The notes beneath the pieces were generated by a model. The model saw nothing but the letters and a program-made list of their open reading frames with translations. It did no database searches and was not told the origin of the DNA. A stretch of 36,010 nt of DNA from a virus: IMG/VR virus record IMGVR_UViG_3300020051_002041, positions 1 through 36,010 of that record. One strand, given 5' to 3'. This document shows positions 1-23,961 of this stretch, one piece after another; the stretch's first letter is position 1; the number at the start of each line of letters is the position of its first letter. Made by a program: the position numbers and the translations under genes.

Positions 1-876
1 CTAAATTTGCTGGGCTGCCTGAAGATTTTTAATTAAATCATAATATTCAATCTCGTACTGTCCATTAAAATTTATTTTTAATTTTTCAATTTCTAAAAAA
101 ACTTCATTATTCATTAATGGAGTTTTTTCTATTTCCTCCCATCCTGTATATTTAGGTCTAGGTAAAAAATCATAATTTTCACTGTAAATTTTATGTTTAC
201 TTGTGCGAGTACTTAATTTTCCAGGATGTAAATTGTTTACTAAATCTACAACTGTTTTATTTTGTAAAAAACTCAAAGTTACTTCAGGTGTATACCTTAA
301 AAAATCAGGTGTTCCTAAAATTTTATTATTTTTATACCAGTTCATGTAGCTATTAACTCTTTCAGTTTCTTGCCACATCCATCTTCCGTTATAATTTTTT
401 AAATAAGGTTCGCCGTTAGCCATTATTAATGTACCATCAAGTTTTAACAAACCTTCCATTATACTTGGCATTTGATAAGCACAACATTTTGCATTAGTTG
501 CTATTTCTAAAATTCGACCAGATTTTATAAATTGATCGATGTCTATATCTACTACTATAGGAGTTATTCCTACACTACTGCAAAAGTCAAATGCATATTT
601 TGTATCGTGTGCATTGTAATCCCCATAAGAAATAATTGCAATATTAAAAGGTATTTTTGCAGCTTGGAAAGTTCGGATCATAAACTCTCCGTCAAGACCT
701 CCACTAAATAACAGTGTAATAGGAGATGTAGCTGTATCATACACAATTTGTGCAGCTTTAATAGATTCTAAATTAAAATTTTGTATGTTAGTTGACATGC
801 ATCTAGTAAGAGATACTGTCCAATCGTTACCATTACCAGATGTAGTAAAATAATTGTTATAGGAAAGTTCAACCAT
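1..876 (-). CDS. PP-loop ATPase-like protein (asparagine synthase / ATP-pyrophosphatase-like)
   Basis: This is a complete 291-residue protein. Residues 58-63 read SGGLDG after a hydrophobic strand (ITLLF), which matches the PP-loop that binds ATP in asparagine synthase C-terminal domains and other N-type ATP pyrophosphatases. The usual motif is SGGxDS, and here the last Ser is Gly. Such enzymes adenylate a carboxylate or carbonyl before amide or thiol transfer. There is no N-terminal glutaminase domain, so free ammonia or a partner protein would be needed. The start is the ATG at 876. A later Met at residue 27 is possible, but the residues before it look coding (NDWTVSL). The start codon overlaps the divergent gene at 875. 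Family is moderately sure, substrate unknown. Confidence 0.6.
   Translation of the reverse strand: MVELSYNNYFTTSGNGNDWTVSLTRCMSTNIQNFNLESIKAAQIVYDTATSPITLLFSGGLDGEFMIRTFQAAKIPFNIAIISYGDYNAHDTKYAFDFCSSVGITPIVVDIDIDQFIKSGRILEIATNAKCCAYQMPSIMEGLLKLDGTLIMANGEPYLKNYNGRWMWQETERVNSYMNWYKNNKILGTPDFLRYTPEVTLSFLQNKTVVDLVNNLHPGKLSTRTSKHKIYSENYDFLPRPKYTGWEEIEKTPLMNNEVFLEIEKLKINFNGQYEIEYYDLIKNLQAAQQI
792..819 (+). promoter_or_regulatory. Possible sigma70-type promoter for the 875-2875 operon
   Basis: TTGACA (792-797) is a perfect -35 hexamer. It is followed by a 16-nt spacer and TACTGT (814-819), a poor -10. It lies inside the 5' part of the opposite-strand PP-loop gene. It would give a leader of about 50 nt ending in an AGGAAAG ribosome-binding site before the ATG at 875. 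The weak -10 makes this tentative. Confidence 0.25.
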
Positions 877-1552
877 GACCGATGTTTTTAAACCTTTAGA
901 TTTTGATTTTAATCAAGAAAAAATTTATAACGACTTAATGGCTATGAATATTTTTGATAAAAGTTTCCTTGCTACAGTTATTTACGCAGATGGTCGAAGC
1001 AAGTATGACAAAGACGGTTATTTTGAAGATTATCAGGACGTCATTCACTATGACGAAAATCGGCAATTAGTTAAACAAAATTTTAACACTTTTGTTACGT
1101 ATAACTTTACTCATATTCCGGGCGTTAAAGAAACAGACGCTGATAGCTTTGTTGATACACCTACTGGACGCAAACCTATATGGCAAGTATATAACACTGA
1201 ATGGAAATGGAAAGATGATACGCCGCAATCCTTAAAAAATACTATAACTGCATTAGATTTAGAATGGGTTAGTTGTGTTAGACTAGTCGGGCAAACTCCT
1301 CCTAGTAAAGGCATAGTGCATGCGGATGCTAGTTACAAAGATAATTTTAAATATTTTAAAAACAACGGCGTTGCTATTACACTTAATATTTCAGACGGTG
1401 GCGGACATTTAAAATACAGAGTTGGCAACGAATTAATAGAAGTAGACGAATCAAAATATAAGTCTTGGCATTTTGATGATTCAATGCCACACTGTACTAC
1501 TGAAATATCATCGCCTAGAATACAGATAAGAATATTTGGAAAAAGAAAATGA
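875..1552 (+). CDS. 2OG-Fe(II) oxygenase
   Basis: This 225-residue protein has the facial-triad layout of 2-oxoglutarate/Fe(II) dioxygenases: HAD (H149, D151), distal H206 in PHCTTE, and a 2OG-binding Arg at R215 in PRIQIRIFG. These enzymes couple 2OG decarboxylation to hydroxylation or related oxidation of a substrate. The length suits a small stand-alone hydroxylase. The ATG at 875 has AGGAAAG upstream. The gene heads a three-oxygenase plus-strand operon, and its stop overlaps the next start (ATGA at 1549-1552). The fold is confident and the substrate unknown. Confidence 0.8.
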   Translation: MTDVFKPLDFDFNQEKIYNDLMAMNIFDKSFLATVIYADGRSKYDKDGYFEDYQDVIHYDENRQLVKQNFNTFVTYNFTHIPGVKETDADSFVDTPTGRKPIWQVYNTEWKWKDDTPQSLKNTITALDLEWVSCVRLVGQTPPSKGIVHADASYKDNFKYFKNNGVAITLNISDGGGHLKYRVGNELIEVDESKYKSWHFDDSMPHCTTEISSPRIQIRIFGKRK

Positions 1553-2259
1553 CAGATTGGAAAAATTTAATATTTTCGCCGCTGGCATTGCCTGATCCAC
1601 CTGAAGTAGATATGGATGAATTTGTTGCATGGCACAGTGACCAAAAAAAGTTTATGCTACAACACAATCAAAATAAAGTAAACAGTACAAACATATACGG
1701 AGGATATTGCTGGCATATTAGTTGGGCAATTTGGTGGAATACTTATGATTTAGATAATCCGTGGATATGTGATTTTGACAAAAGACTTCCTGAACTTGCA
1801 GAATATATTAAGTTATTTCCGTTTAAAAAAATAAAAAGCATTAGCTTTCTTAATCAAATAGGTGGAGCAAAAGTAGAACCGCATAGTGATCCTGATAGCA
1901 TGTGGGGAATGAGATTTTACTTAAAAAATAAAACAAAAGATTCATTGTATTTTAGCAGAATGAAAGAACCTAACAATTACAGAATTGCAACAATGGAAGA
2001 CGAAAACGGCAATACTGTTAAAGAGCGTAAAAATCATTTAGAATTTTGCAGAGACGAAAAGATATATGCACAGTTTCCTAAAGATAAATGTGCATGGATG
2101 CTCAACAGTCATCGAGCATGGCACGGCTTAGATGAAAATGCTTCGCCTACAGGAAGTAGGATCACTTGTGCAATTATAGGCGATTACGATGAAGAAAAAT
2201 TATTTAACTTACTAGAAAATAGTACACAGCAACATAAAGAATATCAGATTTGGTTTTAA
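1549..2259 (+). CDS. 2OG-Fe(II) oxygenase
   Basis: This 236-residue protein carries HSD (H112, D114), distal H192 in AWHGLDE, and R204 in SRITCAIIG, a full set of iron and 2OG ligands. The start overlaps the upstream stop by 4 nt, with GGAAAAAG as ribosome-binding site. It resembles the next gene in length, in a D-x-D-E-F opening with an early Trp-His pair (residues 22-29), and in a long insert between the two ligand motifs. The pair probably arose by duplication. Substrate unknown. Confidence 0.78.
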   Translation: MTDWKNLIFSPLALPDPPEVDMDEFVAWHSDQKKFMLQHNQNKVNSTNIYGGYCWHISWAIWWNTYDLDNPWICDFDKRLPELAEYIKLFPFKKIKSISFLNQIGGAKVEPHSDPDSMWGMRFYLKNKTKDSLYFSRMKEPNNYRIATMEDENGNTVKERKNHLEFCRDEKIYAQFPKDKCAWMLNSHRAWHGLDENASPTGSRITCAIIGDYDEEKLFNLLENSTQQHKEYQIWF

Positions 2260-2260: not shown

Positions 2261-2875
2261 ATGACAGTATTATACACTCCTTTAGATTTGCCCGCATTAG
2301 AATTTGACAGAGATGAATTTATTAAATGGCACGAAGCAAAACGATGGCGTAATAGAGATAATATTAATTACGATAAAAAAGACTTTATTGCGCCTTGGTT
2401 AGTGAGTTTTGCATATCACGTTGACTACGGCTGGTGTAATAGATTCTTAAAGGTAATTCCTAATTTTCAAGATATATTATATAACCATTTGCCATATACT
2501 GATATAACATATGTAAATTTTTTAGAACAAAAAATTCCTTGTCAATTGCATCAAGATGTAGGCAGTCGTCCTAGAAGAGAAGCAGAACCAGGAGCATATA
2601 AAGCATTTATGGTGTACGATGCTCCCCTTATGTATTTTCAACAAGGCGAAACAAAAGATAATATACGTGAAGAAAAATTATATATCGATCACCCTAATGA
2701 GCTTACTAAATGGTTTGCTATAAACAATTACGATGCATTCCATGCAGCCGACTTACCAGCACAGGGACAACGTAAAATTATTATGACAATATTAGGAAAG
2801 CTAGACGAAAACAAACATAAAGAAATATTAAGTCGCAGTCTTGAAAAATATAAAGACTATTTGATTACAGTTTGA
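2261..2875 (+). CDS. 2OG-Fe(II) oxygenase
   Basis: This 204-residue protein has HQD (H97, D99), distal H161 in AFHAADL, and R171 in QRKIIMTILG. It is a likely paralogue of the preceding gene; both begin with a P-L-x-L/P-P region then D-x-D-E-F and a Trp-His. One nucleotide separates its ATG from the preceding stop, so translational coupling is likely. Its 3' end overlaps the convergent radical SAM gene by 19 nt, with no terminator between them. Confidence 0.76.
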   Translation: MTVLYTPLDLPALEFDRDEFIKWHEAKRWRNRDNINYDKKDFIAPWLVSFAYHVDYGWCNRFLKVIPNFQDILYNHLPYTDITYVNFLEQKIPCQLHQDVGSRPRREAEPGAYKAFMVYDAPLMYFQQGETKDNIREEKLYIDHPNELTKWFAINNYDAFHAADLPAQGQRKIIMTILGKLDENKHKEILSRSLEKYKDYLITV

Positions 2876-4326
2876 ATATAATTGTCAACGATTAGTTTTT
2901 TGTTTTCTCTTAGCATTGCAACAGGTAGTTTATTTCTTAATCCTTGATGTTTAGAATAATGTTCATCTAAATCCAATCCTAAACTAGTTAAGCCGCCGCA
3001 AGACCAGCCCGCTACTTTTTGATAATCATCGTCCATATTTCGCAAGTCTTCGGCAATTTTGCCTGCTTTGATAGCATTCATATGTTCATTCTTCCATACA
3101 GTCATCCATGCATTAGTTTTGCCAGCTAATGTAGTTTTAAGCAATCGCTGCTGATGATGAACTTTATATCCAAATTTTTCTGGATCTCTGTCAATAGGTG
3201 AATGATATTCGTGATGTTCTTTTGAATGTATTAGCAAAGGATACCAATACCACAAATCAATATTAGGATTAGTTATTACCCGTTCTCTACTAGCTCTAAT
3301 ATTTTCTTCACTTTGATGAGGAAGCCCTACAATAAGATTAATTTGTACCTTGACTTGATCTTGACTTTTTTGTTTTATGCTTTCAATTGCATCTAAAACT
3401 TTTTCAATATCTGCACCTTTTTGTATAGCTTGTCGAGTTTCTTTATTATAACTTTCTACACCAAAACTTGCGCCTCGAAGGCCACTTTCAATAAGTAAAT
3501 CTATTTGATCAGGCCAGCGTACTAATAATTCTGGTTTAATATACGTATCAAACTTTATTTTAAATGGTAAACTTGTAATTACTTCGTGCATTAATTCTAG
3601 CTTAACCATACTATCATTGTATGTGTCGTCCATGAACCAATAATTAGTTGTACCAAACTGTTCATAGTTACGCATAAATTCTGCGTACATGTCATCCTTG
3701 ACACGAATATAATCAAACTTACTTTTATTGTTTAATGGAAAATTACAAAATGCACAATTAAATATACAACCTCTAGCAATTTCCATAGGAAGACTTTGTT
3801 GTGCAGTAATACCGTCTTCGGGCTTCCATATCACTGGAATGTTTGCTAGATCTTTTCTATCATACGAATGATTACTATCTACAATTTTTTTACCTTTGTA
3901 GTCTTTGAATATTAAGTTAGTATCTTTGCCTGCAAGGTAATGTGTAATTGCAACAGCAGCATCGTCAGCATACCCCGTGACAAATATATCACCAAAGTCT
4001 AAGAACTCTACCATTGCTTTTGCGCCGCCGATTACAAACGGCACATTAAATCTCTTTCGCATATTAATAAAAAACTCAGTTCTATCTTGCAAAAGTTCAC
4101 TAGTATTAAAAAATGTTGTACTAAATCCAACCCATAACGTTTCTTTACTAACATATTTTTCTAGTGCAAGTTCTATATGTTCGTCTGTAAGATTATGAAA
4201 GTAATCAACAACTTTTACATTGTATCCCTGGGCTTCTAATTCTGTGCGGATACGATATGCGCCAAGAGCTCTAAAATAGCTAGTGGTTCCCATGTCAATT
4301 CCTGTAAAAATTACTGCATGATACAT
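2857..4326 (-). CDS. Radical SAM enzyme with cobalamin-binding-like N-terminal domain
   Basis: This 489-residue protein has two parts. Residues 1-150 form a Rossmann-like region (YRIRTEL, VGFSTTFF, VIGGAKA, VTGYADDA), as in B12-binding radical SAM proteins, though the DxHxxG cobalamin motif is not evident. C187, C191 and C194 (CIFNCAFC) bind the [4Fe-4S] cluster that cleaves SAM. Further motifs such as GVESYNKETR and VGLPHQSEE fit the TIM-barrel. It is closely similar to the gene at 5661. It follows the oxygenase at 4311 with a 16-nt overlap in an operon led by the desaturase. The start has AGAGAA upstream. The reaction is unknown. Confidence 0.85.
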   Translation of the reverse strand: MYHAVIFTGIDMGTTSYFRALGAYRIRTELEAQGYNVKVVDYFHNLTDEHIELALEKYVSKETLWVGFSTTFFNTSELLQDRTEFFINMRKRFNVPFVIGGAKAMVEFLDFGDIFVTGYADDAAVAITHYLAGKDTNLIFKDYKGKKIVDSNHSYDRKDLANIPVIWKPEDGITAQQSLPMEIARGCIFNCAFCNFPLNNKSKFDYIRVKDDMYAEFMRNYEQFGTTNYWFMDDTYNDSMVKLELMHEVITSLPFKIKFDTYIKPELLVRWPDQIDLLIESGLRGASFGVESYNKETRQAIQKGADIEKVLDAIESIKQKSQDQVKVQINLIVGLPHQSEENIRASRERVITNPNIDLWYWYPLLIHSKEHHEYHSPIDRDPEKFGYKVHHQQRLLKTTLAGKTNAWMTVWKNEHMNAIKAGKIAEDLRNMDDDYQKVAGWSCGGLTSLGLDLDEHYSKHQGLRNKLPVAMLRENKKLIVDNYIQTVIK

Positions 4327-4895
4327 TTGAAATTCTCTGTTATACCTGTTGTATCAATTACATCCATTACGATATGATACCTATTTTGGTTTGATTCATT
4401 TATATATTGATGTTTTAAATTAGCCCAAAACATATAAACACTGCCGTCTGCTTTCATACTAATTCTAGATTTTTCGACATTGCTGTTATTATATAGTATA
4501 TGACAACATTGCTCATTTGTCAAGAGAGGAATATGTAATCTAGCTTTAAAATCATTAGCAGGATAATCTCTGTGTATGCTGCTTTTACTATGCGGTGGTA
4601 AATTGTTTATTCTTACTTTAAATGGAGTTAAACCTTTACCAACTAGATCATCTAACACCTCTTTCATGTACCCTATACATAATTGTGTAGGCTTATTGTA
4701 TTCACAAGGCGGATATACTGTCTCATTTTCTTTTCGCCAGCCGTCTTGCCAAGTGCCGTCTTGGCTGGTAATGCTCCAACCTCCAAACCCAGGTTCTATT
4801 GGACAGATAGGATCTCCTATTGACATCACTGTGTCCGTTAAAAAACCTTGTAATTTTTGAATATTATATGTAAATGGCAGTCTTTCAAAGACCAT
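4311..4895 (-). CDS. 2OG-Fe(II) oxygenase, aspartyl/asparaginyl hydroxylase-like
   Basis: This 194-residue protein has HRD (H108, D110), distal H162 in LKHQYINES, and R172 in NRYHIVMDV. The closing pattern (H, short loop, N, R, hydrophobic strand) is like the aspartyl/asparaginyl beta-hydroxylase group. It sits between the desaturase and the radical SAM gene on one transcript. AAAGG about 10 nt upstream supports the ATG at 4895. The target could be a protein side chain or a small molecule. Confidence 0.75.
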   Translation of the reverse strand: MVFERLPFTYNIQKLQGFLTDTVMSIGDPICPIEPGFGGWSITSQDGTWQDGWRKENETVYPPCEYNKPTQLCIGYMKEVLDDLVGKGLTPFKVRINNLPPHSKSSIHRDYPANDFKARLHIPLLTNEQCCHILYNNSNVEKSRISMKADGSVYMFWANLKHQYINESNQNRYHIVMDVIDTTGITENFKCIMQ

Positions 4896-4899: not shown

Positions 4900-5652
4900 C
4901 TAGGCCTTTACTAGCTTTATTACCCATGCACTAGGGTCTAGTTCCCACCAACGATGTGAAAAGTTCCATCGTCCAGGTTTTGCATGATGATTGTTATGCC
5001 AACCTTCGCCCCATGTAATTACTGCTAGCCACCAGGTATTACGGCTATCTTCTTTAGTTTCGTAATTGCGGTATCCCCACATATGGTTTCCATAGTTACT
5101 TAATACACTTGCCCATATTTGTATACCCATAGGAATGATACCTACAAATATTAATACGTTTATTCCACCTAGTACAAACAATAATGCAAGCCATACTAAC
5201 AATATTAAGTAATAGTAGTTGTGTAAAATTAAATGAAACTTGTCAGTAATTAATCTACGCACTGCCCATTTGTTCATTTCAAAATCGTATTTTGGAATTA
5301 AAACATTCCACAATCCTAAATGCGGACTGTGCGGATCACCATCTTTATCGCTGTGTTTGTGATGCTGATTATGTACTGCTACCCATCCAATGGAACTGCC
5401 AGTGCCGCCTACTGCTCCAAAGAATGTAAAAAGATATTCCATCCATTTGTATCGAAACTTAAAGCTGCCGTGAGTAAGTTGTCTATGGAAGGTAATAGTG
5501 ATACCCAAGCAGCCTGTTAAAAAATACATGCCAAAAGAAAGCAACCACCAATTTACAGATGGTGCAAAAAATGCCATATAAACAATCATTAATGTTGCTA
5601 TTGCTTGAATATACGGAAAATATGATGTATTTGCTCTAAAGTAACCCTTCAT
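4900..5652 (-). CDS. Membrane fatty acid desaturase (acyl-CoA delta-9 type)
   Basis: This 250-residue integral membrane protein shows all three histidine boxes of delta-9 desaturases: HRQLTH (56-61), HNQHH (94-98) and HNNHH (219-223). These hold the di-iron centre that inserts a cis double bond into a saturated acyl chain. Hydrophobic stretches near residues 12-55 and 140-190 fit membrane hairpins. It is near the short end for the family but complete. It heads an operon with an oxygenase and a radical SAM gene. A GATAAATA late-type box lies 5 nt before the ATG. Phage desaturation of host lipid, or of a lipid made by this cluster, is inferred. Confidence 0.88.
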   Translation of the reverse strand: MKGYFRANTSYFPYIQAIATLMIVYMAFFAPSVNWWLLSFGMYFLTGCLGITITFHRQLTHGSFKFRYKWMEYLFTFFGAVGGTGSSIGWVAVHNQHHKHSDKDGDPHSPHLGLWNVLIPKYDFEMNKWAVRRLITDKFHLILHNYYYLILLVWLALLFVLGGINVLIFVGIIPMGIQIWASVLSNYGNHMWGYRNYETKEDSRNTWWLAVITWGEGWHNNHHAKPGRWNFSHRWWELDPSAWVIKLVKA

Positions 5653-5657: not shown

Positions 5658-5665
5658 TATTTATC
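5658..5665 (-). promoter_or_regulatory. Late-type promoter GATAAATA, 5 nt before the desaturase ATG
   Basis: GATAAATA matches the NATAAATA late promoter of T4-like phages. The stop codon of the upstream gene (TAA at 5663-5661) lies inside it. Only 5 nt separate it from the ATG at 5652. By T4 geometry transcription would begin at or next to the start codon. Confidence 0.6.
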
Positions 5666-7091
5666 GCCCTAATAATTGTTTTTTATAATTTGTGATAAAC
5701 TGCTGTTTAGCAAGTTTTAACTTATTATAAGGTAACTTGTGTAAATATCCGCTATGTTCTTTGTTGTGTTTATCTACATCAAAGCCTAAATTTAATAAAC
5801 TTTCTCTATACCATACAGGAATTTTAAATCGTTCTGCGCATCGATCATTTAATTCAGTTGCAATCTGACTAGCACGAGATTCGTTCATATATTCATTGTA
5901 CCATGTCATTGGTGCGCCGTTGGTTCTTCCAGCACTAGTTGTTTTTACTACATCTCTTGGTTTTACAAAATATCCAAAGCCTGTAGGATTTTTATCAATA
6001 GGACTTGTGTAAGCATAATTATTTGGATTGTGTATAGTTAATGAATAATAACTAAAATGATCTATGTAATCTGCATTGTATAATACATCAAATGAATTAT
6101 ATATACTTTCAATTGATTCGTGCGGTAATCCTACTATCATAGTGCATTGATTACTGATATTGTTTTTATGCATAACTTGCAATGCTTCTAATATTCTACT
6201 AGGATCTTTCATTTTAAATATTGCTTGTCTGGTATCAGGATTTAAACTTTCAAGACCGTACGCTGCATACTTTAATCCTGTTTCGATCAATAACGGTATT
6301 TGATCCGGCTGTGCAACTAGTAACTCAGGCTTTATATACGTACTATAGCTTATTTTAAAATCTAATTTAGATATTGCAGTGTGCAGCATTTCTAATTTTT
6401 GTATACTATCATTAAATGTATCATCCATAAATGAATAATCAGTTACACCATATCGTTCGTAATTTTCTTTAAGTTCATCTGCAATATTGTCAACATTCCT
6501 AAAATAGTCAAATTTCTTTTTGTTATTCATTGGAAAATTACAGAACGCACAATTAAATATACAACCTCTTGCAATTTCCATTGGCAAACTACTACCCGGA
6601 AGGATCATATCAGTGTCTTTCCATTTAATAGATATATTTGATAGGTCTTTTTTGTTGTAATCTTGGTTACTATTAATAATTTTTTTATCAAATGTATCGA
6701 TAGCTTTAGTAAATTTTACTATTGCATCGTCTGCATACCCTGTAACATAATAATCAATAAATTCAGTTTCCTGTACCAGTGCTTTGCTGCCGCCGAAGAT
6801 TAATTTAACGTGAGGATACGTTTTCTTAATTGTTTTCCAAAACGTATCATTTTCACTTATTTCAGTTGTAGTATTAAAAAATGTTGTGCTAAATCCTATC
6901 CACACCGTTTCAGCTGTAACATATGTTTCTAATAATTTAAAAATGTCGCTATTAGAAAAATGTTGAAAGAAATCTACAACAAGGCAAGAAATACCTGCAT
7001 CTTCTAGTGCAGTTCTTATACGATATGCGCCAGCGCCTCTATACAAAGAATGCGGCGATATTTCTAGTCCAGTAAAAATTATAGTCTGCAT
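5661..7091 (-). CDS. Radical SAM enzyme with cobalamin-binding-like N-terminal domain (paralogue of 2857-4326)
   Basis: This 476-residue protein is collinear with the radical SAM protein at 2857-4326: GAYRIRT near residue 21, IGFSTTFF near 65, GGSKALV near 100, VTGYADDA near 116, and the cluster cysteines C177, C181, C184 in the identical string RGCIFNCAFCNFP. Shared C-terminal landmarks (SPIDK/R...P, FGY, then a TxAGxTN segment) show whole-length duplication. It is transcribed alone from a TATAAATA box 5 nt upstream of the ATG at 7091, just ahead of the desaturase unit. Substrate unknown; related tasks on related substrates are inferred. Confidence 0.85.
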   Translation of the reverse strand: MQTIIFTGLEISPHSLYRGAGAYRIRTALEDAGISCLVVDFFQHFSNSDIFKLLETYVTAETVWIGFSTTFFNTTTEISENDTFWKTIKKTYPHVKLIFGGSKALVQETEFIDYYVTGYADDAIVKFTKAIDTFDKKIINSNQDYNKKDLSNISIKWKDTDMILPGSSLPMEIARGCIFNCAFCNFPMNNKKKFDYFRNVDNIADELKENYERYGVTDYSFMDDTFNDSIQKLEMLHTAISKLDFKISYSTYIKPELLVAQPDQIPLLIETGLKYAAYGLESLNPDTRQAIFKMKDPSRILEALQVMHKNNISNQCTMIVGLPHESIESIYNSFDVLYNADYIDHFSYYSLTIHNPNNYAYTSPIDKNPTGFGYFVKPRDVVKTTSAGRTNGAPMTWYNEYMNESRASQIATELNDRCAERFKIPVWYRESLLNLGFDVDKHNKEHSGYLHKLPYNKLKLAKQQFITNYKKQLLGR

Positions 7092-7104: not shown

Positions 7105-7119
7105 TGCGTAGTTAACTAT

Positions 7120-7127
7120 GGTAAATA
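7120..7127 (+). promoter_or_regulatory. Variant late-type box GGTAAATA, 5 nt before ATG 7133
   Basis: GGTAAATA differs from GATAAATA at one base. It stands 5 nt before the ATG at 7133, the same spacing as the exact boxes at 5658, 7097 and 17783. This favours 7133 over the ATG at 7118 as the start. It is weaker than the exact matches. Confidence 0.3.
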
Positions 7128-7132
7128 ATATT

Positions 7133-7798
7133 ATGTTAGACATCTTACAAAAAATTCCACATTTAGATCTAGGGTTTAAATATAACCCTAAACAAATGCT
7201 GGATGAAATTAAGCATTTTGATTATGCAAATTATCAAACATCGTATGCTAATACAAAAGAATTATATGAAAAAAATTGGAGTGGTGCTAGTTTAGTTAGT
7301 ATCGATGGAAGTATTTTTGGAGACATGAGTGAACTTAAAGTATATCCAGAAGTTAATCCTAAAGAAACAGAGTTAGCAAAAAAATGTCCTTATCTAATGC
7401 AAATTTTACATGATATAGGCAGTAACAATGAGCGCAGTCGAATCATGCGCATTGCTCCAAAGGGCAGTTTAGACTGGCATAGTCATGTACTACATCATAA
7501 ACAAAATCCAAAAAGATTAGTGGTTCAGATACCTATTGTTGTTCCTAAAGGATTTACATATAGTGTTATGCATGCCAAAGACTTGTCAGCATTTAAAAAG
7601 GGCCAAAGCATTCATACATATGATAAAGAATATGAAGAAGGAAAAGTGTATGTGTTTAATAGTTTTCATCCTCATAATGTCTTTAATCCAAGTGACGATT
7701 ATCGAATTACACTAATGACATATATGAATATTGATAATTTAAAAAGCAAACAAATTGTAGAGAAAGCTGTTAACAATTATGTCGGGCCATTACTTTAA
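7133..7798 (+). CDS. 2OG-Fe(II) oxygenase-like, aspartyl beta-hydroxylase type, with HxH in place of HxD
   Basis: This protein has 221 residues from the ATG at 7133, or 226 from 7118. It ends like aspartyl/asparaginyl hydroxylases: FHPHNVFNPSDDYRITLMTY, with distal H181 and R191 (numbering from 7133). The proximal motif is WHSH (H116, H118), so the usual Asp ligand is replaced by His. Some aspartyl hydroxylases lack the acidic ligand, so activity is possible. The start at 7133 is chosen because of a late-type box 5 nt upstream; neither ATG has a ribosome-binding site. The next gene overlaps its end by 20 nt. Confidence 0.68.
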   Translation: MLDILQKIPHLDLGFKYNPKQMLDEIKHFDYANYQTSYANTKELYEKNWSGASLVSIDGSIFGDMSELKVYPEVNPKETELAKKCPYLMQILHDIGSNNERSRIMRIAPKGSLDWHSHVLHHKQNPKRLVVQIPIVVPKGFTYSVMHAKDLSAFKKGQSIHTYDKEYEEGKVYVFNSFHPHNVFNPSDDYRITLMTYMNIDNLKSKQIVEKAVNNYVGPLL

Positions 7799-8390
7799 AG
7801 TATATAAACAATTTGAAGAATTTTCTAAATTAATTTCAAATATTGATTTAGAAGATGATAGCGATTATTTAGATAATCATCGCAACGATATATACGATCG
7901 GCTGCGTTTGCCGATGCGAATGTTTAAAGGCGATAAAAGAAAATATGTAGACAAACTAATAAAAGATTATTTTGGGTTAGAAGATTTTGTTTTTAGTGTT
8001 ATATCTAGCGAAGGCGCAAGTCGTATCCACACAGACACATATTACAAAAAAGAATCACACTTACAACGGTATTGTAATTTTGCATTTCCTATAAGCGGCG
8101 ATTTTAATTCAAGACTTACATACTGGCCTAATTTAAATAAAATTGATGCTAAGGATGTCTTTATTAATGCTTTTCTTAAAGATGAAAATTTATACAAATA
8201 TAGTACTGCCAATACTTGGCATGATTCAATTTTACACAAACAGTATCAACCAGTTTTGTTAAACACTAGTATTCCGCATGCTGTACTCGGAAACGGCAAA
8301 TCACTATTTGCATATATTACTATTATAGGAAAAACCTATGATGACTGTGCAGCTTTATACGACAATATATCTAATTCGGCAATTATCTGA
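7779..8390 (+). CDS. 2OG-Fe(II) oxygenase-like protein
   Basis: This 203-residue protein has HTD (H84, D86) and distal H167 in SIPHAVLGNGKSLFAYITIIG. The spacing and final strand fit the 2OG oxygenase fold, although the 2OG-binding Arg seems replaced (K174 is the nearest basic residue). The start lies within the preceding gene in another frame. The 3' end overlaps the convergent acetyltransferase gene by 55 nt, so its last 18 codons are also antisense to coding sequence. Confidence 0.65.
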   Translation: MSGHYFKVYKQFEEFSKLISNIDLEDDSDYLDNHRNDIYDRLRLPMRMFKGDKRKYVDKLIKDYFGLEDFVFSVISSEGASRIHTDTYYKKESHLQRYCNFAFPISGDFNSRLTYWPNLNKIDAKDVFINAFLKDENLYKYSTANTWHDSILHKQYQPVLLNTSIPHAVLGNGKSLFAYITIIGKTYDDCAALYDNISNSAII

Positions 8391-8908
8391 TTAGTATACT
8401 GTACTTCTTTAAGCTCGTCGTACCATTTTAAATTTTGGTATATTTCTCTAGGGCCGCCGAATGTGCTTGCTTTACCTTCACTCATACGTTTTAAAAAATT
8501 TACAAGTTTATGATTATATTCGTTAAACGTTAACCAAACACGACTGTATCCTAGTGATTCTGCCCACTTAATTTGTTGCGGAAATATATGTCGAGCTTGG
8601 CACCAGTGCCCGCCACCGCGGTAGTCAGGGTGTGTAAATGCTCTTACACCGATAATAGGAACGTCATTGTAGATATATGCACCACTCATAGCAATAGGTT
8701 TATCATCGTTTGAAACAATATTAAATACTCCAAATCTTTGTTTATGATAAAGCAAATTTAATAAAGTGTGCGGCTTATTTTGCCAATCACTTACATCGTA
8801 ATTAGCGTATGCAGGTTCTTTTAAATAATATGCATCTTCGCACAATGTTATTAATCTATTGTGTTGTTCGTCTGTTACTGTGTCAGGTGTAAAAGTTTCA
8901 ATTTTCAT
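8336..8908 (-). CDS. GNAT-family N-acetyltransferase
   Basis: This 190-residue protein has GNAT features: the strand IIGVRAFTHPDY followed by the acetyl-CoA pyrophosphate loop RGGGHW (motif A, R-x-x-G-x), a helix, then YSRVWLTFNEYNHKLVNFLKRM (motif B). It would move an acetyl group from acetyl-CoA to an amine. It is the last gene of the 17777-8336 operon, and its start overlaps the upstream oxygenase by 11 nt. The target is unknown; an amino-sugar or a modified residue produced by the neighbouring enzymes is a guess from context. Confidence 0.7.
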   Translation of the reverse strand: MKIETFTPDTVTDEQHNRLITLCEDAYYLKEPAYANYDVSDWQNKPHTLLNLLYHKQRFGVFNIVSNDDKPIAMSGAYIYNDVPIIGVRAFTHPDYRGGGHWCQARHIFPQQIKWAESLGYSRVWLTFNEYNHKLVNFLKRMSEGKASTFGGPREIYQNLKWYDELKEVQYTNQIIAELDILSYKAAQSS

Positions 8909-9401
8909 ATTCTATAAACTCGTCTATATCTGATGGTTGCCAATCCATAGGCATACGTAACATATAAGTGTATCTTTCGTGTTCATTGTGTATACTATGC
9001 GGAACTCTAGTATCCATAACAAAAATTTTCGTAGTGGCATATCTAGACAACAGTTTAGCTTGTCTTAATTCCCAAACCCATAAGTTGTTTGGTTTATTAG
9101 GTTTTCCCTTGGTTTTCCAAAAATGTGTATAACTTTTTTCATATCCAATAACTGGAATATTAACGCTCCAAATATAATTTATGCCTGCATATAAATCTCT
9201 ATGACAATGTGTCTGTTTAGTTGCAGGGTGCCGTAATGTTTCACAAAGAACTGGAGTTTTTCCTAAAAAGTCAATAAATTCTCGAACTTCGTCTGTATAT
9301 GGACCGTTGTACGCATGTACATTAATTTTTGCGTTTAACACTATAGGTATTAAACTTTGTTGCAACTCTAAAAATTTTGGGTAATCTATCGTGTAATACA
9401 T
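8898..9401 (-). CDS. 2OG-Fe(II) oxygenase, small
   Basis: This 167-residue protein has HRD (H67, D69), distal H135 in RVPHSIHNE, and R143 in ERYTYMLRM. It is short, near the minimal double-stranded beta-helix core. Its start overlaps the upstream oxygenase stop by 16 nt, and it overlaps the acetyltransferase downstream by 11 nt, so it lies in a translationally coupled chain. Substrate unknown. Confidence 0.72.
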   Translation of the reverse strand: MYYTIDYPKFLELQQSLIPIVLNAKINVHAYNGPYTDEVREFIDFLGKTPVLCETLRHPATKQTHCHRDLYAGINYIWSVNIPVIGYEKSYTHFWKTKGKPNKPNNLWVWELRQAKLLSRYATTKIFVMDTRVPHSIHNEHERYTYMLRMPMDWQPSDIDEFIEYEN

Positions 9402-14968: not shown

Positions 14969-15518
14969 GTTGCATCCTATCTATGCTGATTTCATTAATA
15001 TTAATATCGCTAGGTTGATCAATTAGCCATTTAATATATTCAGCTGCTTTACTAATGTTTAAGCATTTTCGATCAGGGTGTTTTTCCTGATTGTTTGTTA
15101 GTGTGCCAAAACTAATATAACTAACTTTAGGTGCATCACTATTCCACACTCCGCTGATTGCTAAAGTGTTTGAATAATCTCTTAACGCTTTTTTTTCAGC
15201 ATTATATAACCAGGCTTTTCCATTTTTTACTCTATCAGTTGTGCTACCTACGCAAATAATTCTTGTAGGTTTTTTTACTTCAATTAGTTTTTTATAAACA
15301 GTATCTAATAACACAGTTTGATTAAATTTCCATAAGGCACTGTTAATAACTACTACGTCGTGGTGTTGAGCTAATTTTGCAAATAATTCTTGACCTGAAG
15401 TTGTAGTAAGATCAAAGCCCGATGCCCGGCTGGCAAAATTTGCGTCAATATATATTTTTTTAAGTTCTTTAGCTAACCCAAAATTAGAATTGCCACTTAT
15501 TAATATTTTACAAGACAT
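14961..15518 (-). CDS. Short-chain dehydrogenase/reductase-like protein
   Basis: This 185-residue protein has a Rossmann start (ILISGNSNFGLA, residues 5-16, the G-x-x-x-x-G form of the nucleotide loop), VVVINSA near 55 in the position of the NAG motif, a catalytic-type Ser at S92 in VGSTT, and YNAEK (Y105, K109), the SDR Y-x-x-x-K pair. It is shorter than the usual 250 residues because the C-terminal substrate lobe is reduced. It would use NAD(P)H for a carbonyl/alcohol or epimerase-type step. It lies between two radical SAM genes with 8-11 nt overlaps. Confidence 0.7.
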   Translation of the reverse strand: MSCKILISGNSNFGLAKELKKIYIDANFASRASGFDLTTTSGQELFAKLAQHHDVVVINSALWKFNQTVLLDTVYKKLIEVKKPTRIICVGSTTDRVKNGKAWLYNAEKKALRDYSNTLAISGVWNSDAPKVSYISFGTLTNNQEKHPDRKCLNISKAAEYIKWLIDQPSDININEISIDRMQHD

Positions 15519-16566
15519 ATTTTTTATCTAACCGTTTTTTAGTACCGCAGGTTTCAATACAGGCACTGCATTTTCCTAGTTGATTTTCTTGCGCTATTGC
15601 CCAGCTATCATGTATAATCGAAAAGAACTTACCTTTGATAATTTCATCCATTGTGTGATTTTTTAGATTAAATGTATCTGTGCCGCCAGCCAACTCATAC
15701 CATAACTTTAATTTTTTGTCGTTATTAAACATTCTTGCGCCAAGGTGGCAACACGGATATACTGCACCTGTTGCCATAATCATAATATCGCGATTTCCAA
15801 TAACTTCACAATCAATAGTTGTAGTATTTTCTGGCAATGCTTTTCGAGTAGGATCATTCCTAATCTTTTGCATTCCCATTATATCGTTCCATTTTTTAGA
15901 TTTCTTTTTACTAATTTTTTCTAACATCTCAAACTGAAACTCGATAGTTTTATTACTATACATGCTATCAGTAGCTCCGTTCCTATGACTTTGTATTATA
16001 AAAAAGTTTTGAAATCCAACATCTATACTATATGATCGGGCATCTAAAACTTGATGTTCATTCCACGGAAATACAATAAATTGCCAATGGGCACATCCGC
16101 CTGCATCTATAAACGCTTTAATGTTTTGATTTAGTTTATTCCAATTTACGCCTACGCGATATTTGTGGTTAGTATCTTCTAAGCCATCAATGCCAAATAC
16201 AATCCAGCGGTTGCCTTGATATAGTTCTGCTAATTTTTTCCAATCTTTTTCATTTTTTAATCCGCCGTTTGTACTACAAATAATTTTAATGTCAGGCCAT
16301 TCGTCTATAAAATGCTGTGTAATTTCGTATAGTTTTGGATGAGTTAATGGATCGCCGAAACTACCACAAAATCTAACAGCGTTTAATCTTGGTAGCTGTT
16401 CTTTTGTAAATCTTTCTTTTATCAATTCTAAAGATAGCATGTCTTTATCTAAAAACGGACGACATAAACTATCAATTTCTCTTACACATTCGGGACATTT
16501 TGCATTACAAAAATTTGTAAGATCGAAATGCAATTGTTCTATGTCTTTAGATTCTAATGGCCACAT
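15508..16566 (-). CDS. Radical SAM/SPASM enzyme (paralogue of 22879-23961)
   Basis: This 352-residue protein has the radical SAM motif at C20, C24, C27 (CNAKCPEC) very near the N-terminus, and C-terminal cysteines (CEVIG, YPCCHLGA, CSACIETC) of a SPASM domain with auxiliary [4Fe-4S] clusters. SPASM enzymes often modify peptides or sugars. It is clearly homologous to the protein at 22879: both contain DGLxDTNHxYRxGVNWN and NEHQV in the same order. The start overlaps the twitch radical SAM stop (TAATG). Substrate unknown. Confidence 0.86.
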   Translation of the reverse strand: MWPLESKDIEQLHFDLTNFCNAKCPECVREIDSLCRPFLDKDMLSLELIKERFTKEQLPRLNAVRFCGSFGDPLTHPKLYEITQHFIDEWPDIKIICSTNGGLKNEKDWKKLAELYQGNRWIVFGIDGLEDTNHKYRVGVNWNKLNQNIKAFIDAGGCAHWQFIVFPWNEHQVLDARSYSIDVGFQNFFIIQSHRNGATDSMYSNKTIEFQFEMLEKISKKKSKKWNDIMGMQKIRNDPTRKALPENTTTIDCEVIGNRDIMIMATGAVYPCCHLGARMFNNDKKLKLWYELAGGTDTFNLKNHTMDEIIKGKFFSIIHDSWAIAQENQLGKCSACIETCGTKKRLDKKYVL

Positions 16567-17777: not shown

Positions 17778-17782
17778 GAAAA

Positions 17783-17790: not shown

Positions 17791-17805
17791 ATTATATGCT
17801 TAGTT

Positions 17806-17813: not shown

Positions 17814-17831
17814 ACATTGGACGGAGAGAAA

Positions 17832-19836: not shown

Positions 19837-20573
19837 AAAAAATATTACACTTAGGTTGCAGTTGGAGTGAAATAAGTCCATTTAGAGATAACCAAAGTTC
19901 TCCTATTACATTATTAAACTCGTTATTAAAAGAAAAAGATAAAGATTTCAAAATATACAGTACTGCTAGCGGCGGTAGTAGTATAGGTATGCAGATAGAT
20001 TTATTATTACAAATATTAGATACTGATTTAAAGTTTGATGCAATAATTTTTCAATCTACTACGTTAGGCAGAGGATACAGTAGGAATTTATTAGATTTTA
20101 CTCCAGTAAGTGAAAAAGACTTTATTGAGTTTACACCTAAATACCCTTCTTCAACTGTTTATACTCTACGCGATTATGAATATAAAAACTATCACTGGTA
20201 TAGTACTCAGAGTATAGTACCAAAAAGGCATTCAATTACTGGTAAAAATTTAAATACTTTTTTTGTCTTTAAGAACCGTATACAGTATGACGAGAATTCA
20301 GAGTTTTTTGGGCAAGTATTGCTAGCAAAAAAGATATTAGAAAACTCAAAGATTCCGTTTATAATGTATGGTCATCAGATTATAGACGCTCAACGGTCGG
20401 GATTTCCCTTACGGTGTTATGATGATATTAGAAAAGAATTTGATTTTGTTTCTGCTGAAGAATTTGATATAAATCCGTATTGCATAGATGACGGACATCA
20501 TTTAAGTTTACAAGGTAATCTAAAGGTAGCAGAAATATTACTACCTTTAGCGTTAGATCGATTTACATCTTAG
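19833..20573 (+). CDS. SGNH/GDSL-like hydrolase
   Basis: This protein has 246 residues from the ATG at 19833, which forms an ATGA overlap; the frame runs back to 19806. HLGCSWSE (residues 6-13) provides the nucleophile Ser block, ASGGSS near 44 the block II Gly, and DDGHHLSLQGN near the C-terminus the Asp/His block. SGNH enzymes remove acyl groups from lipids or glycans. It is the last gene of its operon and overlaps the convergent oxygenase by 11 nt. Unlike the 10146 gene it keeps the catalytic His. Confidence 0.68.
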   Translation: MKKILHLGCSWSEISPFRDNQSSPITLLNSLLKEKDKDFKIYSTASGGSSIGMQIDLLLQILDTDLKFDAIIFQSTTLGRGYSRNLLDFTPVSEKDFIEFTPKYPSSTVYTLRDYEYKNYHWYSTQSIVPKRHSITGKNLNTFFVFKNRIQYDENSEFFGQVLLAKKILENSKIPFIMYGHQIIDAQRSGFPLRCYDDIRKEFDFVSAEEFDINPYCIDDGHHLSLQGNLKVAEILLPLALDRFTS

Positions 20574-21459
20574 CTTGTTCAGCTCTCCAATCGAGCAATA
20601 AGTCGTCATCTAGTTCAATTAGATATGTAAGAAGTAATCCCATTTTGCTATTCCACATCTTTTTGCCAGCTGCTTTTGTGCCTTCATTACTTGCATGTAA
20701 CTGAGTTGCATCAAAACTCATCCCAATAGTAGGTTCCCATGGAATAATCTTCTCAAGACTTAAACCTTGTAGACGCTCGTATGGAGTATTCATCCATAGT
20801 TTATGCATAGTTTTGTCAAATGGTGTTGCATTATTTTCTTTAGGTATTGCATTTCCGTCACCATCATGAAATTGAATTTCAGTATAATCTGTTGTAATTT
20901 TGTAAACACTAGCAATGTTTGGTGTTTTGTTTCCGCCATTATATACATGTGCCCAATCAATATGACGTTGATTAAAAAATACAATTTGGCCGCCATCTAC
21001 TTCGTCGTGATGTGTTCCTATCCATAATGGAATTAAAAAGTTTTTCCAACATGTATATTTTCTACGTTCGTGATTTAGCGGCGTATGCTTATAAGTGTTT
21101 TCAAAGTCTTCTGGCCTGATACTGTCATTGTGCAATCCATATTGTTGAGGCGTAATAAAGTAGTTGCCTCCAATGCTAGGCGATAATGCAGCAGCAGGTC
21201 CCATAAAGTTATCAATACGTTCTTTAAACTCTAAGTAAATTTCTTCTAACCCGCCTGCAATAAGAACAGTACCGTTTCGATTGAGTCTAGGTTGACGATC
21301 ATTTTTAAATGCTTGTTTCCATATGTTGTCTAACTCAGCTGCACTAAACATGTTTTCTAACACTTCAGCTTTAGAACTATGTCTGCGCATGTTTTCTATT
21401 GCTATTGGATGATCCATAGGCAACATATAGTGCTCTCTTAGGTAATCATTTACTGCCAT
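20563..21459 (-). CDS. 2OG-Fe(II) oxygenase-like, same subfamily as 11941-12633
   Basis: This 298-residue protein has HND (H110, D112) in YGLHNDSIRP, an IPLW segment, VDGGQIVFF, and distal H255 in TQLHASNEG; the 2OG-binding basic residue may be K272 (MWNSKMGLLL). The whole plan follows the oxygenase at 11941, with about 65 more residues. AAAGGATT precedes the ATG at 21459, which overlaps the upstream radical SAM stop by 14 nt. It is the last gene of the operon that starts at 29661. Confidence 0.7.
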   Translation of the reverse strand: MAVNDYLREHYMLPMDHPIAIENMRRHSSKAEVLENMFSAAELDNIWKQAFKNDRQPRLNRNGTVLIAGGLEEIYLEFKERIDNFMGPAAALSPSIGGNYFITPQQYGLHNDSIRPEDFENTYKHTPLNHERRKYTCWKNFLIPLWIGTHHDEVDGGQIVFFNQRHIDWAHVYNGGNKTPNIASVYKITTDYTEIQFHDGDGNAIPKENNATPFDKTMHKLWMNTPYERLQGLSLEKIIPWEPTIGMSFDATQLHASNEGTKAAGKKMWNSKMGLLLTYLIELDDDLLLDWRAEQAKM

Positions 21460-22870
21460 TTTCTAATCCTTTAAATATATCTTTCATTTCTGGAAATGTT
21501 TCTTCAAACTTAACACCACGTTGTTTATCGCATAAATCTAAAAATTCTTTTGTTTCAGGCAATCGCACAGTCCAGTCTTCGCTTTCCATAAATTTTAGCA
21601 TGCCTTCAAGACGTTTAATACCATAACTTGCATTGCGCCAAGTATCGTAGTCTACTTTGCCTTTATGCCAGCTTGGTATACTTTTCTCCCAATTAGCTTC
21701 CCACCATGGATAAAATTCTTCATACTTTTTGCGACACGCTGCTTTGAATTCATTAGGCAGGACCTTAACATTAAGATGCGGCGGATGATAAACAAAGTGA
21801 TAATTTACCCCGCCGGCGCCAAATGGCCACATGTTAATCTTTTTAAACCCTTGTTCAAGTTTCCATTTAATAAGATCAGGGATATAATATATATTCAGTG
21901 CTTGAACTGCACATGCTACAGTAACTTCTACGTTATTGCTTGTTTTTTTGTCTAATATATGAAATACTTCTGCTTGGCGTGTCCACTTACTAGGATAACG
22001 AATATAATCATTCATTTGTTCAATGCTGTCTATACTGTAATGGAAGCGTACTAGCTTAAACTCTTTCCATAACTCAAACAAATCTTCGCGCCATTCTACA
22101 CCATTTGAGTTGTATCGCAATTCAAGGTTTTTAGCATAGCCCATTTTAATAGCATGTTCAAGAATCTCATAGTGTTCTTCAATAATAAGACTTTCGCCGC
22201 CAGCAAAATAAATTTGTTGCATACTTGGCATTTGCTCATAGAACTGTTTCCAGAATGTAGGATTCTGTTTGTGCCAATTGTAGCTACTGCCGTTATAGCT
22301 GCCTTTATCCTGCCATTGCATAGTTTCTTTTAGGCTTGCATTTTCTACAGCAGGAAAGATTGCTTTATAATCTTTGATCCAACCGCTACTATCGTGTGGA
22401 CTGCACATCACACATGCAAGCTGGCACTTAGTACCAAATCTTAAGTCTATATATGCAAGCTGTGGAGGAACACTTCCGTCTTCTTTAGTATCAGCAATTA
22501 ATTTGTCAACATCGACACGCTGACTCCAATACGCAGTTTCCCACATACGCTTACTATTATGGCCGGCTGCTTCTTCTTTGTAACATTTTAAACAACTAGC
22601 TGGCTTTTCTCCTGCAAGCATTTGTTTACGCACATTTTTCATATATGTGCTGTTCCAGGCAGTTTCAAAATCACTTACATTCAAGTTGTTAGGCTTGCCG
22701 TCTTCTGTTTTAAGAACACCAACTTGGCCATAATGGGTGTGATCATTCGTAGGACCTACGCTACTTGCGTTTGCGGTACAACATACTCGCATGCTACCGT
22801 CCGGTCTTGTGCTTAAATGCACCCAAGGTAGCAAACAAAATGTTTCTGAAGGGGGGTTATTGTCTGTCAT
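21446..22870 (-). CDS. Twitch domain-type radical SAM enzyme
   Basis: This 474-residue protein begins FCLLPWVHLSTRPDG followed by VCC, the hallmark N-terminal module of twitch domain-containing radical SAM proteins (C12, C30, C31, C93, C96). The SAM cluster motif is C149, C153, C156 (CQLACVMC), and AGGESLI near residue 218 is the SAM-binding GGE. The 5' part is GC-richer than most neighbours (about half GC over 22741-22860). No clear ribosome-binding site precedes the ATG at 22870. It sits between the SPASM radical SAM gene and the oxygenase. Confidence 0.86.
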   Translation of the reverse strand: MTDNNPPSETFCLLPWVHLSTRPDGSMRVCCTANASSVGPTNDHTHYGQVGVLKTEDGKPNNLNVSDFETAWNSTYMKNVRKQMLAGEKPASCLKCYKEEAAGHNSKRMWETAYWSQRVDVDKLIADTKEDGSVPPQLAYIDLRFGTKCQLACVMCSPHDSSGWIKDYKAIFPAVENASLKETMQWQDKGSYNGSSYNWHKQNPTFWKQFYEQMPSMQQIYFAGGESLIIEEHYEILEHAIKMGYAKNLELRYNSNGVEWREDLFELWKEFKLVRFHYSIDSIEQMNDYIRYPSKWTRQAEVFHILDKKTSNNVEVTVACAVQALNIYYIPDLIKWKLEQGFKKINMWPFGAGGVNYHFVYHPPHLNVKVLPNEFKAACRKKYEEFYPWWEANWEKSIPSWHKGKVDYDTWRNASYGIKRLEGMLKFMESEDWTVRLPETKEFLDLCDKQRGVKFEETFPEMKDIFKGLENGSK

Positions 22871-22878
22871 ACTACTAC

Positions 22879-23961
22879 TTATTTAAATTGTTCAGCATAA
22901 GGATCAAACTCGGTTCCACATTTTTGCGCACATACTCCTAATTTTCCCTCTTTAACACTATCAAGTTTCCAACTATTAGTAATACTAGATATTAATTTGC
23001 CATCGACAACATCTTTAATGTCGTTGTTTATTACACTAATTCCTTCTTTGCCGCCAGCGACATCTATATGATCCCATATTTGTTCTATTTTAGGATCAGC
23101 GTGCCACCATTTATACATGCGGCCAGCAGTCCAACAACACGGCATTAACAATCCTTCAGCTGTAATAAAAATACTTCCTTGTTTAGCTACTTTGCACGAA
23201 ACGTTACATTTATCAAGATAGTTCTTCATACCGCCATAAGATTTCTCAATTTCAGCTTGTTTTTGTAATGCCAAATTTATATTTTCTTTTTTCTTAGGTT
23301 TTGATAATACAGCAGTTTGTTCACCTTTTCTATTTACCGATTGGTGTGTTTCTTTAGCTTTAACTTTCGATGTTACAAATCGGCCAGTTTTCTTCTTGAT
23401 AAATTTTTCAAAACCCCATTTAATTGAAAGAGCTTCTGCTTCTTCTACTTGATGCTCATTATGTTCAAATATTAAAAAATCCCAACGTGCTCTGCCGCCA
23501 GCGCTAGCAAACGCTTTCATGCTACGTTCTACATTGTTCCAATTTACACCTTGTCTGTAAATATGATTCGTATCGCGAAGACCGTCGACACTAAAAATAA
23601 CAGCCCCCATTCTTCCAAAGACATGGGCCAGTTCAGTCCACCATTCAACATTTTTTGCTCCTGCGTTTGTATTCATACTTAGCCACATATTAGGATTATG
23701 TTCGCGGAAGTATTTGAATATTTCTAATGTATCTTTAGCAACAATCGGATCACCTAAATTTCCACACATATACATAGTTTTTAATTGTGCAATAAACTCT
23801 GGCTTAAAGATGCGCTTGCAGTCTTCTAATGAAAGTTCTGCATTCGTAATATGAGGATTATCTTCACCACCATTTATATTACGATCACACATAGAACATG
23901 CAGCTTGACATCGTTGTGTTACTTCCAAGTGTACTTCTTTAATATCTGTGTAATTGTACAT
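22879..23961 (-). CDS. Radical SAM/SPASM enzyme (paralogue of 15508-16566)
   Basis: This 360-residue protein has the cluster motif at C18, C22, C25 (CQAACSMC), MCGNLGDP in the GGE position, DGLRDTNHIYRQGVNWN near residue 128, and C-terminal SPASM cysteines (CNVSC, MPCCWTAG, CAQKCG). A Lys-rich insert near 190-235 is absent in the paralogue. AAGGAAAT precedes the ATG. It starts the second radical SAM module, ahead of the twitch enzyme at 21446. Confidence 0.87.
   Translation of the reverse strand: MYNYTDIKEVHLEVTQRCQAACSMCDRNINGGEDNPHITNAELSLEDCKRIFKPEFIAQLKTMYMCGNLGDPIVAKDTLEIFKYFREHNPNMWLSMNTNAGAKNVEWWTELAHVFGRMGAVIFSVDGLRDTNHIYRQGVNWNNVERSMKAFASAGGRARWDFLIFEHNEHQVEEAEALSIKWGFEKFIKKKTGRFVTSKVKAKETHQSVNRKGEQTAVLSKPKKKENINLALQKQAEIEKSYGGMKNYLDKCNVSCKVAKQGSIFITAEGLLMPCCWTAGRMYKWWHADPKIEQIWDHIDVAGGKEGISVINNDIKDVVDGKLISSITNSWKLDSVKEGKLGVCAQKCGTEFDPYAEQFK

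Follow-up and report, generated by a model that had tools for sequence, protein, structure and literature searches.

A radical SAM and 2-oxoglutarate oxygenase gene island behind the tail-fibre genes of a large uncultured marine phage, probably involved in surface tailoring

The stretch analysed here (the window), IMG/VR record IMGVR_UViG_3300020051_002041, covers 36,010 bases of an uncultured virus; it is a fragment and ends inside tail genes. The virus is a large uncultured marine phage and, directly behind its tail-fibre genes, it carries an island of radical S-adenosylmethionine (rSAM) enzymes and 2-oxoglutarate (2OG) oxygenases. Genes are named by their lower window coordinate (21446 is 21446..22870). 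The island is real and partly conserved, and it consists of two separable modules, A (0 to 12 kb) and B (29.7 to 12.6 kb). Its probable task is the tailoring of a surface molecule that contains sugar or lipid; the best reading, with a probability of roughly 0.4, is a late surface-tailoring system acting on the tail fibre or another surface structure. A model that saw the sequence alone had proposed one complete tailoring pathway (the original prediction). This is too strong because the modules are separate and, apart from those of module A, the 2OG genes mostly vary; surface tailoring beside the tail fibres is still the preferred reading.

Conserved frame of module B

A scan of viral contigs with 21446 identified 297 stretches holding a relative, of which the best 80 were retained. 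Module B was compared in 56 non-redundant loci, 39 long loci and 40 long records, all selected by 21446. The order recurring among the 56 loci is tail fibre, GT8-like glycosyltransferase (GT) genes, 25464, 24521, 24303, 22879, variable rSAM genes, 21446, further variable rSAM genes and, often, 12623. Relatives keep this frame and exchange rSAM cassettes between the anchors. All 40 long records encode rSAM domains, with 4-21 per record. The median 20-kb rSAM locus (39 long loci) holds nine rSAM genes (range 5-14) and one 2OG gene (range 0-5), compared with eight and thirteen in the window; 2OG genes other than those of module A are mostly variable cargo.

Among the anchors, 25464 has two GT-A-like domains (AlphaFold2, pLDDT 81), with the bidomain chondroitin polymerase as top Foldseek match (E 4e-7) and other glycosyltransferases next; a profile search of the PDB with this protein gave nothing useful. 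For 24521, neither a Pfam match nor a useful PDB relative was found. The small protein 24303 is conserved along its whole length, with identities of 65-82% and 28 invariant positions. In five loci (L011, L014, L041, L042 and L082) 25464 is split into two open reading frames (ORFs) with an rSAM gene between the halves. Cargo genes of other kinds, namely alginate-lyase-like, kinase-like, nitroreductase and AMP-ligase genes, were seen in L021, L034, L035 and L043.

Constraint on 21446

A gp23-type major capsid protein (MCP) was detected in five of ten tested records of island-carrying relatives, and not in the 36-kb window itself; one relative's record is 383 kb long. The MCP of relative G002 resembles those of cultured jumbo phages, with 71% identity to both Sinorhizobium phage Phosso (469 kb) and Vibrio phage 2.275.O (349 kb) and 67-68% to BF-like and PA5oct-like phages. 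As this protein is known from its relatives, the window virus is predicted to belong to the T4 superfamily and to be related to jumbo phages.

Between relatives G001 and G002 the identity of 21446 is 81.3%, the same as that of the MCP. It ranks first in identity between G001 and G006, and between G002 and G006 it shows 87%, with a 901-aa protein at 91%. The nonsynonymous divergence (dN) of 21446 is 0.157 versus 0.168 for the MCP, and their fourfold-degenerate sites differ by 59% and 49%, respectively, a degree of divergence that indicates purifying selection and not recent transfer. Where present, 21446 is under strong purifying selection, with MCP-level constraint. Relatives G042 and G045, retrieved via the module A gene 1549, carry it at 83%. 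Universal presence of 21446 across the MCP clade was rejected on twelve contigs chosen by their MCP, none of which has a close orthologue (best 24-36% identical); the four longest (>130 kb) hold 2-5 rSAM domains each. The rSAM core is therefore a strongly constrained trait of a sub-lineage and not a universal gene.

Late-type promoter motif and operon context

The T4 consensus TATAAATA occurs in the window below the number expected by chance, so a group-specific motif, VATAAATAH, was derived from upstream regions of the group; it resembles the T4 late promoter. In G001, 46 of 55 motif sites lie at most 120 nt upstream of genes (3.7 expected), as do 23 of 29 in G002 (1.6 expected). The window has GATAAATAA at 33236 (minus strand), 35 nt upstream of 31723..33201, and AATAAATAC at 30758 (minus strand), 27 nt upstream of 29727..30731. 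Before 20563 a single further same-strand copy follows, at 27565 inside the 27052 gene, with none in gaps, and the genes from 29661 to 20563 overlap or almost abut. With this packing and the late-type motifs upstream, module B seems to belong to a late tail operon. Scans for sigma-70 promoters and terminators gave chance-level results.

A pair of divergent late-type motifs is located at 17782-17814, between 16566 and 17817 (17790 on the minus and 17806 on the plus strand). The true start of 16566 may be at a codon further downstream.

Conserved gene content of module A

Module A has the order PP-loop gene, 875, 1549, 2261, 2857, 4900, 8336, then 11209/11941, and is syntenic in at least ten contigs, including G031 and G041-G045 (G031 is without 1549, and the G041 contig is cut before 8336). 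The PP-loop gene and the desaturase gene are usually 1-3 genes apart. Among 53 more distant PP-loop loci, the desaturase family was found in 22, GNAT in 16 and the B12-binding-type rSAM in 13, versus five, one and one of 56 rSAM-anchored loci (p 1e-4, 3e-5 and 4e-4), a rough control, as locus length and selection are not the same in the two sets. In relatives, PhyH, ATP-grasp and FA_hydroxylase genes are present in addition. Modules A and B are separate, since G043 and G044 hold module A without 22879, 21446 or 12623, and most rSAM loci are without module A.

The accessory functions originally proposed were borne out for the desaturase (PF00487) and the GNAT protein (PF00583), and supported for the PP-loop protein (SGGxDS in relatives); no Pfam match was obtained for the SGNH and short-chain dehydrogenase/reductase (SDR) calls. 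In the PDB, 4900 matches an acyl-CoA desaturase (E 7e-14). Together with 19126, whose nearest family is OlsC/LpxO, this desaturase hints at an acyl substrate.

A bacterial origin of module A was rejected, as the sole genome match is probably a misbinned phage. This 335-kb contig (L151, PBPT01000016.1) with module A belongs to a metagenome-assembled genome of Neomarinimicrobiota, which has gp23 on an rSAM-bearing contig; the assembly thus holds gp23-family phage sequence, probably phage binned with the bacterium.

Radical SAM enzymes and 2OG oxygenases

The eight rSAM genes originally proposed were all confirmed: each has CxxxCxxC and matches PF04055 (E 1e-23 to 5e-7), with 13754 and 16566 slightly below the Pfam cut-off (NF033640 259 and 162 bits). 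Both 21446 and 13754 pass the curated cut-off of NF033640 (N_Twi_rSAM, 170 bits), 16566 falls narrowly short, and the remaining five are outside this family. NCBIfam comparisons show 15508 and 22879 to be similar to SPASM maturases, and 2857 and 5661 to be of the B12-binding type, nearest to PhpK and TIGR04072 and far under the cut-offs of both. A scan of viral contigs with 5661 found zero relatives.

Thirteen 2OG oxygenases had been proposed from HxD...H motifs. Most of these calls were right; ten are backed by profile or structure, and 875, 7779 and 9386 are probable only. The motif itself is weak evidence, as shuffled versions of these proteins show the triad-plus-R/K pattern at a frequency of 15-66%, and 34% of control ORFs have it too; motif statistics were rejected as not discriminating. 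Fold or profile homology to the Fe(II)/2OG superfamily together with HxD...H and R/K was found for ten of the thirteen. Pfam PF05118 detects 4311, 7118 and 19126, and 10727 weakly; profile-profile comparison ties 11209, 8898 and 10727 to these genes at 97-100%, and 1549/2261 at 92-94%, with HxD and the distal H invariant. The AlphaFold model of 20563 has a pLDDT of 89.5, and each of the 50 PDB matches listed by Foldseek (best E 3e-6) is an Fe/2OG enzyme or closely related to one; H110, D112, H255 and K272 are invariant in its family (alignment A1). A PDB profile search with 20563 gave nothing useful. For 875, 7779 and 9386 the best hhalign probabilities were 35, 53 and 19%, to 2OG families every time.

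Judged from homologues, 11941 starts at about 12633 and not at 12744. A tRNA-Tyr is located in the island at 10088-10178 (minus strand), and the 5' end of the ORF 9386-10180 begins within it; no tRNA-Tyr was found in twelve related loci examined. The features are listed in Table 1.

Table 1. Predicted genes of the island and its flank, with the basis of each assignment
Coordinates	Strand	Assignment	Basis
1..876	-	PP-loop ATPase-like, module A	SGGxDS in relatives, SGGLDG in window; QueC E 0.07 only
875..1552	+	Probable 2OG oxygenase, module A	HxD in all homologues among matches listed; 9/10 close loci
1549..2259	+	2OG oxygenase, module A	Profile-profile 92-94%, invariant HxD + distal H
2261..2875	+	2OG oxygenase, module A	Profile-profile 92-94%, invariant HxD + distal H
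2857..4326	-	B12-binding-type rSAM, module A	PF04055 62 bits; alongside PP-loop in 9/10 close loci
4311..4895	-	2OG oxygenase, PF05118	Pfam E 1e-7
4900..5652	-	Acyl desaturase, module A	PF00487 74 bits; DesA-type E 1e-23, below equivalog cut-off
5661..7091	-	B12-binding-type rSAM	PF04055 75 bits; TIGR04072/PhpK nearest, far below cut-off
7118..7798	+	2OG oxygenase, PF05118	Pfam E 2e-9
7779..8390	+	Probable 2OG oxygenase (weak)	53% to 10727, 51% to 19126
8336..8908	-	GNAT, module A	PF00583; with PP-loop in 8/10 close, 16/53 distant loci
8898..9401	-	2OG oxygenase, PF05118-linked	hhalign 98% to 4311
9386..10084	-	Possible 2OG oxygenase (weak)	hhalign best 19%; upstream part of ORF is tRNA
10727..11209	-	2OG oxygenase, PF05118-linked	hhalign 99.4%; Pfam E 3e-4, under cut-off
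11209..11940	-	2OG oxygenase, PF05118-linked	hhalign 99.9%
11941..12633	-	2OG oxygenase, 20563 paralogue	hhalign 100% to 20563; alignment A1
12623..13741	-	rSAM, far anchor of module B	PF04055 54.6 bits; at least 60% identity in 23/39 long loci
13754..14968	-	Twitch-type rSAM, variable cassette	NF033640 259 bits
14961..15518	-	SDR-like short protein	17/39 long loci; no Pfam match
15508..16566	-	SPASM rSAM, variable cassette	PF04055 + PF13186
16566..17858	-	Twitch-type rSAM, variable cassette, start codon uncertain	NF033640 162 bits
19126..19836	+	2OG oxygenase, PF05118	OlsC is top NCBIfam match (E 3e-6), far under cut-off
20563..21459	-	2OG oxygenase	AlphaFold, Foldseek, invariant H/D/H/K
21446..22870	-	N-terminal-twitch rSAM, island's most conserved gene	NF033640 418 bits; 39/39 long loci (by selection)
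22879..23961	-	rSAM, module B core	PF04055 33.8 bits; at least 45% identity in 38/39 long loci
24303..24524	-	73-aa conserved small protein	33/39 long loci
24521..25480	-	Methyltransferase-like core protein	37/39 long loci; weak, sequence pattern (alignment A2)
25464..27068	-	Tandem GT-A-type glycosyltransferase, module B core	36/39 long loci; AlphaFold2 + Foldseek
27650..28483	-	GT8-like glycosyltransferase	Profile A3; Pfam GT8 E 0.005, under cut-off
28470..29324	-	GT8-like glycosyltransferase, 27650 paralogue	Profile A3 vs PDB: glycogenin E 9e-7, invariant DxD
29727..30731	-	Virion-type protein, 30790 paralogue; last motif-preceded gene ahead of module B	Paralogy; late-type motif
31723..33201	-	Tail-fibre-like structural protein, apparent start of late tail operon continuing into module B	PHROG 19602 tail fiber E 2e-20

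Two further observations concern neighbouring genes. The ORF 17817-19211 (plus strand) encodes a 464-aa protein without a family match that is conserved alongside 19126 in L052. In G006, G031, G042 and G044, ORFs of variable length (1,837 to 5,029 aa) lie beside the tail-fibre genes, past the homologue of 35126.

Proposed role and alternative explanations

In the preferred reading, the island would be part of a host-recognition region, with module B extending the tail-fibre operon and transcribed late. The GT8-like and GT-A-type enzymes would assemble a sugar chain, which the methyltransferase-like protein and the twitch and SPASM rSAM enzymes would tailor; the most likely target would be a tail fibre of the phage or some other surface structure produced in the course of infection. 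A constant step would fall to the anchors (25464, 24521, 24303, 22879, 21446 and often 12623), and swapping of the 2-11 additional rSAM cassettes would vary the product to suit the demands of host range or receptor contact. Module A may add or edit an acyl-type group, with the PP-loop protein activating a carboxylate, the GNAT protein responsible for transfer, and the desaturase, PF05118-type 2OG enzymes and B12-binding rSAM desaturating, hydroxylating and C-methylating the group. Such glycan and acyl-lipid chemistry finds some support in the GT8-like and GT-A-type enzymes, the acyl desaturase and the OlsC/LpxO-like 2OG enzymes. From these data we infer the substrate and late expression, and also that each protein is enzymatically active and that modules A and B share one molecule. 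A bolder proposal, which must be regarded as a long shot, is that marine jumbo-phage relatives encode a late rSAM/2OG line that places a sugar-acyl decoration unknown in cells on tail fibres and so varies host contact.

Several points weigh against surface tailoring of this kind. No signal marks which molecule is modified, and late expression is read from motif and gene order. The loci behind the constraint figures were themselves selected by 21446, and the MCP-chosen contigs are without a close orthologue of it. The GT-A model of 25464 has low TM-scores. Scores against the OlsC/LpxO equivalogs (cut-offs 450/500 bits) miss by a wide margin, at 26.7 and 19.5 bits for 19126 and 14.8 bits for 4311, and PF05118 includes peptide hydroxylases too.

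The same enzymes could instead remodel the host envelope (lipopolysaccharide (LPS), an aminolipid or a surface glycan) and so block superinfection or ease release, leaving the virion unmodified. The acyl desaturase, the PF05118 enzymes nearest OlsC/LpxO and the FA_hydroxylase, GNAT and ATP-grasp genes of relatives would all suit this explanation, and GT-rich host-recognition clusters of pelagimyophages have been tied to LPS synthesis (PMC7029224). It is nevertheless considered somewhat unlikely: the continuity of module B with the tail-fibre operon and its late-type motifs suggest a timing that is late for superinfection exclusion, and no export genes were recognised within the island. Modification of a peptide or protein, in the manner of ribosomally synthesised and post-translationally modified peptides (RiPPs), is a further candidate, in which twitch/SPASM rSAMs and Asp/Asn-hydroxylase-like 2OG enzymes would act on a tail protein or on 24303. 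Peptide maturases often have SPASM/twitch domains (PMC11002830), SkfB is the nearest solved relative of 21446 (E 0.0085), and 24303 lies near 22879 in most loci. However, 24303 is conserved end to end and does not fit a RiPP precursor with conserved leader and variable core (other candidates were not systematically sought), neither a peptidase nor a transporter was recognised, and the GTs and acyl enzymes would be left over, which makes this explanation improbable.

Equally doubtful is a recombination hot spot that lies behind the tail fibres and merely gathers unrelated metabolic genes with no common pathway. Variable cassettes, variable 2OG genes and the separation of modules A and B would be expected of such cargo, and the five-rSAM module of Campylobacter phages CP220 and CPt10 is exchanged en bloc (PMC2853527). 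The constant anchors, the MCP-level constraint on 21446, the synteny of module A and the deep co-occurrence of its PP-loop, desaturase, GNAT and B12-binding rSAM genes speak against it. Random subsets without conserved neighbours, which the original prediction had named as making a single pathway unlikely, were not seen; order and content are kept within each module. Known DNA-modification systems include 2OG, rSAM and GT enzyme classes, so that the island might hypermodify bases of the phage DNA. This is very improbable: no TET/JBP, thymidylate-synthase or nucleotide-kinase type Pfam match was found among the window enzymes scanned, the 2OG enzymes are PF05118-like, and both the location in a tail operon and the acyl desaturase would be unaccounted for.

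Comparison with known systems

A nucleotide search of INPHARED (50,697 phage records) found nothing near the window; protein searches with 12623, 25464, 28470, 2857 and the PP-loop protein gave no match, and a PHROGs search with ten island proteins gave a single weak match. Arrays of rSAM genes in phages are already known. Campylobacter phages CP220 and CPt10 encode 11 and 12 rSAM genes, including an exchangeable five-rSAM module (PMC2853527). CP220 is assigned to the T4 superfamily, to which the window virus is predicted to belong; five of the CP220 rSAM genes lie behind baseplate genes and are followed by two nucleotide-sugar transferases. Its rSAMs match the same broad profiles as those of the island and one tail protein is homologous to 31723, whereas its genome is smaller and an amidinotransferase is present (no glycine amidinotransferase Pfam match was found among the island enzymes scanned). 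The CP220 stretches examined gave no match to the 2OG, PP-loop and desaturase families of the island, and homology between the transferases of the two was rejected, as they have no sequence relation. A comparable grouping, with about five clustered rSAM genes, nucleotide-sugar transferases and tail genes nearby, is also found in the island; by analogy, its independent occurrence in CP220 would count in favour of surface tailoring.

The marine T4-like virus TARA_ERS488813_N000010, published with regard to Fe-S assembly genes, has 12 rSAM genes (PMC5332604), a number similar to that of the window virus. Pelagimyophages have a variable host recognition cluster with tail fibres, glycosyltransferases and rSAM cassettes differing between phages, and an Asp/Asn beta-hydroxylase is core to all of them; their genomes measure 132-164 kb, and the accessible part of the report describes no fixed rSAM anchors or module A (PMC7029224). 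The cultured Vibrio phage K566 (OZ196521) has six PF04055 matches, four to five of which are clustered and match the twitch family profile; no family of module A and no GT family was found in it. Module A, taken together with its relatives, has the same enzyme classes (PF05118, FA_hydroxylase, desaturase, GNAT) as the OlsC/LpxO lipid hydroxylases and ornithine-lipid enzymes, but the island is without a full lipid pathway and the equivalog cut-offs are widely missed.

The rSAM arrays of T4-type phages were termed 'highly unusual' in 2010 (PMC2853527), no explanation of them was found in the later literature, and the word 'radical' is absent from a comparative overview of 224 jumbo phages (PMC7824862). 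Judged from the literature reachable here, novelty appears to lie in the fixed anchors, in the degree of constraint measured and in module A. The array breaks down into constant anchors, cassettes that are swapped between them and a further conserved module, and this provides a small, testable set of genes (25464, 24303, 22879 and 21446) for an old question.

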